DNA from: a bacterium c-19
GTDB taxonomy: Bacteria; Bacillota_I; Bacilli_A; Erysipelotrichales; Erysipelotrichaceae
Assembly: GCA_009917405.1 (NCBI GenBank)
Contig: QZED01000019.1
Coordinates: 1 to 35,791 of the forward strand
DNA: 35,791 nucleotides
Direction of reading: 5' to 3'
Position 1 is the stretch's first letter, and the number at the start of each line of letters is the position of its first letter. A program made the translations under genes and the position numbers. Under the pieces are notes generated by a model. It was not told where the DNA came from, did no database searches, and saw nothing but the letters and a program-made list of their open reading frames with translations. This document shows, piece after piece, positions 30,979-33,722 of the stretch.

Positions 30979-32037
30979 ATGAATACAACGACAGAAATCG
31001 TTGAAACAATCAAGCACAGCAATTACAAAATCACTTATGATGAATACTGTAAAAAGATTCTATGTAATAAACAAATATTGGCTCGCATCATTAAAGAATG
31101 TGTTTCGGAATTTCATGATATTCCGTTAGCCGAGATACCGGATTATATGGAAAGCGAACCGACAATGAATATAAATGTTGATAAAGCAGCCGATAAAATC
31201 TATGGGATGAATACCGAGGATATTTCTGTACATGGTGCCAAAATCATCTTTGATATTTTAGTAGGAATCAGATTACCTAATTCACTGAAGGATAGCATTG
31301 GTTTAATACTAAACATTGAAGCACAGGCAAACAGTAATACTCCCTATCCTCTGTTAAGCCGAGCTGTATATTACTGTAGTAGATTACTCGCAAGACAAAA
31401 AAATCGCCCTGACGGCTTTCAACATTCTGAGTTTCAGAATCTAAAGAAAGTTTATTCCATATGGATCGTGATGAATTCCAAAAAGGCGACGGAAGGGGTG
31501 ATGAATCAGTATTCAATTAGTGAAACATGCTTAAAAAGAGTGTATCATTTTCCTAAAGAAGCGTATGATAAACTGACTGTCATCATGATTTATCCTAACA
31601 GTAAATATGATGTGAATGATGAGAACTACAGTTTGATGGAGCTGTTACATATCTTGTTTAAAGCAGAAATCTCAGCAAAGGAGAAAAAGTGCCAATTAGA
31701 AAAAAACTATGGTATAATGATGACAAAGGAAACAGAACAGGAGGTTGAAGGTATGTGTAACTTGTCACAGGTTCATGTGGATGCAGGTCTTAAACGCGGT
31801 CTGGCGAAAGGACGTAAAGAGGGACGTAAAGAGGGACGTAAAGAGGGTCTTAAACTTGGTTTGGCAAAAGGGATAGCAGAAGGAGTCAAAAAGCAAATGA
31901 TTAAGAATGTAGCTACTATAATGAAAAAAACCAATCAAACGATGACTGAAGTCATGGATTTGTTAGACATCGATGAGTCACTTCGACCTGAAATAAGAAA
32001 ATGTATGAAAGCCCAATGTGATCAAAACGAGATATAA
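30979..32037 (+). CDS. Rpn-family PD-(D/E)XK nuclease (recombination-promoting nuclease), long form
   Basis: The 352-residue protein carries the Rpn/transposase_31-type nuclease core: Asp92 (KIIFDILVGIRL), then Glu114-x-Gln116 (LILNIEAQANS), and a helix YPLLSRAVYYCSRLLARQ. The Asp...Glu-x-Gln set is the active site of these DNA endonucleases. After about residue 259 come the VDAGLKRGLAKG start and three RKEG repeats, then a helical C-terminal domain. In E. coli, Rpn proteins are toxins acting against phage, restrained by a short protein translated from the same gene's 3' part. The same layout is present here. AGGAGAG precedes the ATG. It is a single-gene unit closed by a terminator, not part of an insertion sequence. 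Confidence 0.9.
   Translation: MNTTTEIVETIKHSNYKITYDEYCKKILCNKQILARIIKECVSEFHDIPLAEIPDYMESEPTMNINVDKAADKIYGMNTEDISVHGAKIIFDILVGIRLPNSLKDSIGLILNIEAQANSNTPYPLLSRAVYYCSRLLARQKNRPDGFQHSEFQNLKKVYSIWIVMNSKKATEGVMNQYSISETCLKRVYHFPKEAYDKLTVIMIYPNSKYDVNDENYSLMELLHILFKAEISAKEKKCQLEKNYGIMMTKETEQEVEGMCNLSQVHVDAGLKRGLAKGRKEGRKEGRKEGLKLGLAKGIAEGVKKQMIKNVATIMKKTNQTMTEVMDLLDIDESLRPEIRKCMKAQCDQNEI
31710..31718 (+). promoter_or_regulatory. Intragenic extended -10 promoter inside the Rpn gene
   Basis: TGGTATAAT (31710-31718) is a consensus TGn-TATAAT. Transcripts would start near 31725, just ahead of the internal ribosome binding site. No good -35 is present, which an extended -10 can tolerate. Confidence 0.6.
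31753..32037 (+). CDS. Candidate intragenic short Rpn protein (RpnS-like inhibitor)
   Basis: An in-frame ATG (codon 259 of the long form) has a perfect AGGAGG at 31739-31744, 8 bases upstream, and an extended -10 ahead of that. The product would have 94 residues (MCNLSQVHVDAGLKRGLAKG...), containing the three RKEG repeats and the C-terminal helical domain but none of the nuclease residues. By analogy with E. coli RpnS proteins, it would bind and block the long form. Separate expression is inferred from these signals only. Confidence 0.65.
   Translation: MCNLSQVHVDAGLKRGLAKGRKEGRKEGRKEGLKLGLAKGIAEGVKKQMIKNVATIMKKTNQTMTEVMDLLDIDESLRPEIRKCMKAQCDQNEI
31810..31845 (+). repeat. Three exact 12-base repeats encoding RKEG
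   Basis: The unit GGACGTAAAGAG occurs three times in a row without a mismatch. Related degenerate units flank it (GLAKG, GLKLGLAKG). Exact identity at DNA level suggests recent copy-number change. Confidence 0.9.
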
Positions 32038-32212: not shown

Positions 32213-32249
32213 AAAAAAAGACTGCGTCCAACCTAAATAAAGACACAGT
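32213..32249 (-). terminator. Terminator of the candidate small RNA
   Basis: Minus strand ACTGTGTC (32249-32242) pairs with GACGCAGT (32228-32221), with one T-G pair and a 13-base loop, then C and seven T. Confidence 0.75.
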
Positions 32250-32311
32250 TTTGACATCTCACCCATGCATTCTGCCCACCCGAGAATGTTCCAGATGTCT
32301 CATTATCCCTG
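32213..32311 (-). ncRNA. Candidate orphan small RNA, about 98 bases, with own promoter and terminator
   Basis: On the minus strand a promoter (TTTACT, 17 bases, TATACT, 32345-32317) is followed about 7 bases on by a structured segment. GACATCT (32299-32293) pairs perfectly with AGATGTC (32259-32253). Inside it CATTCT (32288-32283) pairs with AGAATG (32273-32268) and displays the loop CGGGTGGGC; a single-stranded CATGGGTG joins the stems. A terminator hairpin and T run close it. The next gene in that direction (Rpn) is convergent, so it is not a leader of a gene. I recognise no known family: no T-box, riboswitch, SRP, 6S or tmRNA signature. Confidence 0.55.
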
Positions 32312-32316
32312 CCATT

Positions 32317-32345
32317 AGTATACTACATAATAGTCATATAGTAAA
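32317..32345 (-). promoter_or_regulatory. Promoter of the candidate small RNA
   Basis: Minus strand TTTACT (32345-32340), 17-base spacer, TATACT (32322-32317). Confidence 0.6.
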
Positions 32346-32598
32346 TAAGAATTTTCAAAAAAATTGATTTTTTTTGTTTCGTTTCGTAAAACTCTTATCG
32401 CATTATATGAAAACAGTAAACAAAGGCGAAAAATGAATTTCTGTATGTATTTCATTTATAAATAAGATTCATAAATTATCTATACAAAAAAACATGAAAA
32501 TCGCTGTTTCAGTAAAATTCACACAATAATAGTGTTTACATTTTTGCAAAACTTTGATAAAGTATAAATAAGGGGTGCTATGTAAATAAAGTTTCATT
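32346..32598. other. AT-rich leader region upstream of the membrane-tethered sigma gene
   Basis: T- and A-rich runs and no reading frame of note. A possible -10 (TATAAA, 32563-32568) lies about 100 bases before the sigma start, without a well-spaced -35. Confidence 0.35.
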
Positions 32599-32619
32599 AT
32601 TTACAATGTAATTGTAAAT
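32599..32619 (+). promoter_or_regulatory. Perfect 9-bp inverted repeat upstream of the sigma factor gene
   Basis: ATTTACAAT (32599-32607), centre GTA, ATTGTAAAT (32611-32619). Its dyad symmetry and place 48 bases before the start codon suit an operator. Confidence 0.5.
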
Positions 32620-32666
32620 ATGTTTTAATACAAATGTTACAAAAATAAAAATGCGGAGGTGAAAGA

Positions 32667-33722
32667 ATGACACAAGAAGAAATCAGACTGATTGAGGAAG
32701 CGATGCAAAGTAAAGAAGGGGCATTTGAGCAGCTGTTTGAATACTATTATTCAATGGCATATGCAATGGCAATGCGGGAAACAAAAAATGATGCAGATGC
32801 GAAGGATGCCGTACAGGAAGCATTTATCAGTATTCACAGATCGATTAATGAATTAAGAGATCCGCAGGCGTTTCCGGCTTGGCTGAAGACGATTGTGCAT
32901 TCTAAATGCTATAAGCTTTTTAGGAAGAAACATGATATACCGGCTGATCCGAATGTGATGAATGAAACATATTGTGTGGAAGAAAGAAGCTATATGGTAC
33001 CAGTCACTCATTACAATAACGAAAATGAAAAAGAAGTGATTCATCAATTAATCAAACAGTTGAAACCAAGATATCAAGAGGTAGTAGAGCTTGTGTATCT
33101 CAAACAGTTAAAAATTGAGGAAGCGGCGAATTTGCTTGGATTATCGGCAGGTACTGTGAAGACAAGACTTCATCGAGCAAAAAAGGATCTGTTTGTATTA
33201 GTAAAAGCATTTGAAAAAGAAAATAACCGTAAAATTAAATTTAAAGCAGATGCTTTGGCAGCTGATTCTTTATTGATTGTAATTTTCAAACAAATGAAGC
33301 AGCAGCTTTTGCAGACCAAAGAATATATCAGTGGAAATTTGTTGACATCGGCATGTATGGCATCTATGAGTGTGCTTATGGTAAGCGGAGCTGCGTTTGT
33401 TTATGATGATATGAAAGAAGCGAAAAAACAGGAAGATACTGCACAGATACAGGAAAAGGAAACACCATCTGATAAAACAGAAAATATTGATTTGAATCAT
33501 GCTGTTTTTAAAGCAAAGGTTTATCAGGATATGAATATTACCAACAGCAGAAGTGCTTATTATACATGTGTGAATTTTATTATGAATGAATTGGAAAAGG
33601 AACAGAGTGAAGCTGAGTGGAATGAAATTTTACCTGTTTATTATGCATTAAAGGATAAGAATGATGCTTATTATCAGTTATTAAAAGCTGAGGGTTATAC
33701 AGAAGCTTTTGAACAAAGATAA
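32667..33722 (+). CDS. ECF sigma factor fused to a membrane span and an outside domain
   Basis: The 351-residue protein starts with a complete ECF sigma factor: region 2 at about residues 21-88 (FEQLFEYYYSMAYAMAMRET, then DAKDAVQEAFISIHRSI) and region 4 at about 123-182 (LKPRYQEVVELVYLKQLKIE, LSAGTVKTRLHRAKKDLF). It then has a linker, one membrane span at about 225-246 (LTSACMASMSVLMVSGAAFV) and about 100 residues outside, ending in a Tyr-rich helical segment. No separate anti-sigma gene is adjacent, so the tail may itself hold the sigma at the membrane until released. CGGAGGTG precedes the ATG. A surface protein gene follows; control of that gene is inferred. Confidence 0.88.
   Translation: MTQEEIRLIEEAMQSKEGAFEQLFEYYYSMAYAMAMRETKNDADAKDAVQEAFISIHRSINELRDPQAFPAWLKTIVHSKCYKLFRKKHDIPADPNVMNETYCVEERSYMVPVTHYNNENEKEVIHQLIKQLKPRYQEVVELVYLKQLKIEEAANLLGLSAGTVKTRLHRAKKDLFVLVKAFEKENNRKIKFKADALAADSLLIVIFKQMKQQLLQTKEYISGNLLTSACMASMSVLMVSGAAFVYDDMKEAKKQEDTAQIQEKETPSDKTENIDLNHAVFKAKVYQDMNITNSRSAYYTCVNFIMNELEKEQSEAEWNEILPVYYALKDKNDAYYQLLKAEGYTEAFEQR

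Follow-up and report, generated by a model that had tools for sequence, protein, structure and literature searches.

Between two protein-coding genes of the window—the whole 35,791-nucleotide stretch of bacterial DNA analysed here—the minus strand carries an element that is best explained, with moderate confidence, as a lineage-specific, stand-alone small RNA gene that would act in trans by pairing. Its elements, synteny, and pairing are preserved in one sister species. If transcribed, it would be one undescribed and probably young small RNA gene in the little-studied gut family Erysipelotrichaceae. The element is of an ordinary kind and leaves the general picture unchanged.

Layout and predicted structure of the element

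The element sits between an Rpn-like gene, with which it is convergent, and an ECF sigma factor gene, from which it is divergent (Table 1). A first-pass annotation had described a promoter whose hexamers are 17 bases apart, a stem of 7 bp (P1) around a 6-bp hairpin (P2), and a terminator, and all of these are in place. An intergenic locus that has a promoter and an intrinsic terminator of its own is, as far as sequence can tell, what is expected of a trans-acting small RNA, and the element is present in a single copy in the genome, whereas a repeat or mobile element would have several. We propose that a sigma-A RNA polymerase would start near position 32311 of the minus strand and produce a transcript of ~100 nt ending at the intrinsic terminator. 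This RNA is predicted to fold into P1 and P2 with an exposed G-rich loop, the terminator hairpin would guard its 3' end, and the exposed G-rich segments would most likely pair in trans with C-rich stretches of mRNA or of other RNA. The folding programme did not choose a G-quadruplex when it was allowed to.

Table 1. Features of the candidate small RNA gene and its flanking genes (positions in the window).
Feature	Position	Strand	Remarks
Rpn-type nuclease / putative transposase gene	30979-32037	plus	distant (TIGR01784, below cut-off)
Predicted small RNA, ~98-100 nt	32213-32312	minus	start from -10 box, end from T run
Intrinsic terminator	32213-32249	minus	9-bp stem, 11-base loop, T7
T7 run after terminator stem	32219-32213	minus	
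Terminator arms	32249-32241 and 32229-32221	minus	9 pairs, 2 of them G-U
P1 3' strand AGATGTC	32253-32259	minus	GGATGTC in sister species, pair kept as U-G
Unpaired segment CATGGGTG	32260-32267	minus	invariant in both species
P2 hairpin CATTCT-CGGGTGGGC-AGAATG, 6 bp, within P1	32268-32288	minus	loop invariant
P2 strands CATTCT and AGAATG	32288-32283 and 32273-32268	minus	loop CGGGTGGGC
P1 5' strand GACATCT, 7 bp	32293-32299	minus	predicted fold
Sigma-A-type promoter, 17-base spacer	32317-32345	minus	hexamers with 9/12 consensus matches
-10 hexamer TATACT	32322-32317	minus	unchanged in sister species
-35 hexamer TTTACT	32345-32340	minus	unchanged in sister species
ECF sigma factor gene	32667-33722	plus	C-terminal extension

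We compared the parts of the single sequence with shuffled sequences. The region holds 5 promoter-like sites against 5.6 in shuffles, which puts the promoter alone at chance level. The terminator hairpin is beyond chance (z -4.0; 4 of 1,000 shuffles), unlike the core fold taken by itself (z -1.4; 102 of 1,000 shuffles equally good). Core and terminator jointly have a z-score of -2.4, and the whole 116 bases one of -1.6. The terminator was missing from our terminator scan because the latter allowed loops of at most 8 bases and this one has a loop of 11. On the minus strand, an A/T-rich tract (~32346-32375) precedes the promoter. A near-palindrome, AAAAAAATCAATTTTTTT, lies at 32346-32375, upstream of the -35 box; its centre, CA, is TG in the sister species, i.e., the same sequence inverted.

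The orthologue in a sister species

When the family was searched at the DNA level, one syntenic orthologue with 88% identity came up in a sister species of the same genus (G050), on contig CANOSP010000049.1 of an uncultured Erysipelotrichaceae bacterium, where the gene neighbours are the same as in the window. The two changes in the promoter are both in the spacer, and the hexamers are identical. The predicted RNAs of the two species show 13 differences. Among the pairs touched by these, only the outermost terminator pair is lost and one P2 pair is affected, and the rest stay paired. P1 has one change, from U-A to U-G, and there are no double changes in it between the two sequences. In the terminator, one pair changed on both sides, three changed on one side, and the outermost was lost. 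Compensatory changes in the GACATCT/AGATGTC stem, by which the first-pass annotation would have judged the RNA, are thus weakly in evidence: the U-G pair is the only change there, and the sole compensatory pair is in the terminator. The affected P2 pair loses its partner through a one-base deletion, and P2 in the sister species is a perfect 8-bp stem (GCATTCGC/GCGAATGC) with the loop GGGTGG. The G-rich loop CGGGUGGGC, GCAUGGGUG, and GCATGGGTG are invariant between the two species compared.

The orthologue's own core fold has a z-score of -4.8, matched by none of 1,000 shuffles. The RNAalifold consensus fold of the two sequences (z -3.2; 9 of 2,000 column shuffles as low) is unlikely to have arisen by chance. 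Owing to the one-base deletion, the structure that RNAalifold prefers between the P1 arms is not P2, so that the z-score speaks for P1 and the terminator rather more than for P2. The main support for the earlier proposal of a stand-alone structured RNA is this syntenic orthologue, which keeps every part.

Substitutions between the sister species amount to 8.7% in the core (4/46), 20% in the terminator, and 30% (52/172), with many gaps, directly past the T run; the 160 bases in front of the sigma gene have none (0%). The contrast between the RNA (13/103) and the sequence behind the T run (52/172) has a P value of 0.0007, and the conservation boundary therefore coincides with the end of the predicted RNA. 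The drop past the terminator may come from a replacement on the side of the Rpn-like gene, whose proteins are 79% identical. The core rate equals that of the fourfold sites of the neighbouring sigma gene (8.5%, 9/106), so that purifying selection at the sequence level is not demonstrated for the core.

Divergence of the core at the rate of fourfold sites is also what one would expect from a promoter and a terminator without any function in trans. These could be the relic of a leader (attenuator or riboswitch) that has lost its gene, or a stop shielding the Rpn-like gene from antisense transcription coming from the ECF side. We regard this as unlikely, albeit the most serious of the alternatives. 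It is favoured by the absence of the RNA from the other five genus members searched and by the adjoining Rpn-like family, which is multi-copy in the genus (up to 29 matches per genome, whole or partial), with many copies broken, and therefore indicates a neighbourhood in flux. However, pairing survives nearly all changes, the loop is invariant, and the core fold of the sister species stands out at z -4.8, which argues against a relic or a mere stop.

Distribution and putative targets

No Rfam 15 family matched at the gathering threshold, and with E-values up to 10 there were two plant or plastid chance matches, both outside the element. We built a covariance model, R1, from the two sequences and searched overlapping sets of 272 family, 315 order, 395 class, and 392 phylum genomes, those of the class and the phylum being samples. 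It found the RNA in the two species alone, and neither the genome itself, the genus, the family and the order nor the class and phylum samples had another copy. Three other R1 matches (G070, G403, G497) were discarded as chance, since they covered just a terminator hairpin, in some cases preceded by a small hairpin. Plasmids and phages had no copy, and viral contigs no real match. Among the listed matches of the loop pattern in named genomes, those besides CANOSP010000049.1 were mostly in high-GC genomes, and 16 of the listed matches, when run with the covariance model, all scored below 20 bits.

Within the genus, the element was not found in the other five members. Two of them (G111 and G132) keep the block upstream of the ECF gene and AGTATAC at the place of the -10 box, and we found no comparable fold after that box that would suggest a diverged RNA at the same place. 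Beside 17 other ECF paralogues of the genome, and beside the top ECF homologues in three further genus members, no RNA counterpart was found; a weak match in L170 was a plain terminator. With the RNA in two sister species and not in the other genus members, two of which have a comparable ECF locus, the locus would be a case for studying the origin of small RNAs.

The complement of the loop, GCCCACCC, occurs at four places in the genome, one of which is the element itself. None of the three others is at a gene start, which leaves the first-pass proposal that the G-rich segments pair with C-rich targets unsupported. The single GCCCACCC site common to the sister species is inside a conserved GGPPTQH coding stretch of a 402-residue protein, presumably resembling an O-antigen ligase-type membrane protein; since the site codes for a conserved protein motif, its conservation is uninformative on pairing. 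For CACCCATG, the complement of CATGGGTG, there was no convincing gene start among the 15 sites inspected of 30 in the window's genome, or among the 15 inspected of 28 in the sister species. A sponge for CsrA was discarded, as the sister species has lost the GGA motifs. The evidence supports no target, ligand, or partner of the RNA.

In Gram-positive bacteria, the exposed seeds of many characterised small RNAs are rich in C/U and cover the sites where ribosomes bind; the segments predicted to be exposed here are G-rich. The candidate resembles stand-alone intergenic small RNAs of these bacteria, such as the Rli RNAs of Listeria (PMC8079631), in having a promoter and an intrinsic terminator of its own, one or two hairpins, a length of ~100 nt, and a narrow distribution, and differs from them in lacking any sequence or Rfam relation. 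It is also like the small RNA candidates of a survey of noncoding RNAs in 50 genomes, by the description of that category: not a 5' UTR and no consistent gene association (PMC11109978).

Other readings and the genomic neighbourhood

The first-pass annotation had excluded a riboswitch on the grounds that the next gene is convergent. This logic is unsafe: in Listeria, AspocR is an antisense RNA to pocR under the control of a B12 riboswitch (PMC8079631), and the candidate would, like AspocR, be a short terminated RNA that faces a convergent gene. One could thus imagine a terminator responsive to a ligand or protein, gating read-through into an antisense RNA against the Rpn-like gene, in which the P1 strand CATCTG/CATCTA would have two partners. 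An alternative pairing of the P1 strand, with TGGGTG of CATGGGTG in place of AGATGTC, can be modelled, worse by 4.2 kcal/mol in the window and by 1.2 in the sister species; riboswitch-controlled antisense RNA has this precedent (PMC8079631); and read-through would run into the Rpn-like gene, at its end, 176 bases past the terminator. Still, we find this reading improbable. Neither form of P1 overlaps the terminator stem, and hence no conserved antiterminator is seen; unlike AspocR, the candidate has no B12 or other known aptamer (Rfam); and the controlled gene would be mobile and variable. A riboswitch would show a conserved aptamer with covariation in several lineages, and the element is found in two species of one genus. 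Nothing here is in favour of the riboswitch reading.

We give equally little credit to a short peptide gene, which would start with an ATG at 32303 (minus strand) and read MRHLEHSRVGRMHG before the stop (14 codons). Its three in-frame substitutions are all synonymous and in third positions, but these changes are also compatible with the fold, and in the sister species the one-base deletion puts everything after the tenth codon out of frame, so that it reads MRHLEHSRVGECMGGMSKLRFLLG. The ribosome site is also poor: AGGG is separated from the ATG by only three bases and is close, by a few bases, to where transcription is expected to start.

Least probable of all, in our view, is a two-state, genus-restricted small RNA tied to the divergent ECF sigma gene, whose P1 strand CATCTG/A would pair with either AGATGTC or the conserved TGGGTG and switch the exposure of the G-rich segment. 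We take the possible pairing of P1 with TGGGUG as a lead and nothing beyond that.

The neighbourhood of the candidate small RNA gene has features of its own. The Rpn-like family, many of whose copies are short or interrupted, has variable GRKEG-type repeats towards the C-terminus. Upstream of the ECF gene, a block of 160 bases (32507-32666) is identical in both sister species, and two further species keep much of it (TTACATTGTAAATAATGAA, ATTTACAT, CCTTATTTATACTTTATCAAA, and ATGTAAACACTATTAT, minus strand). With a near-palindrome, TTTACAATTACATTGTAAA, inside it, the block has the look of a regulatory region. Beyond the ECF locus of G111 and G132 there is a separate conserved and well-folding intergenic stretch (L006 2040-2260 and L007 2040-2260; CATTCAAACAAYCTA...TTGTTTGRATGGG) with no match in Rfam. 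Finally, ECF sigma factors with the C-terminal extension have at least 24 matches in the 2.2-Mb genome, with similar counts in several other genus members, and this expansion is large for so small a genome.
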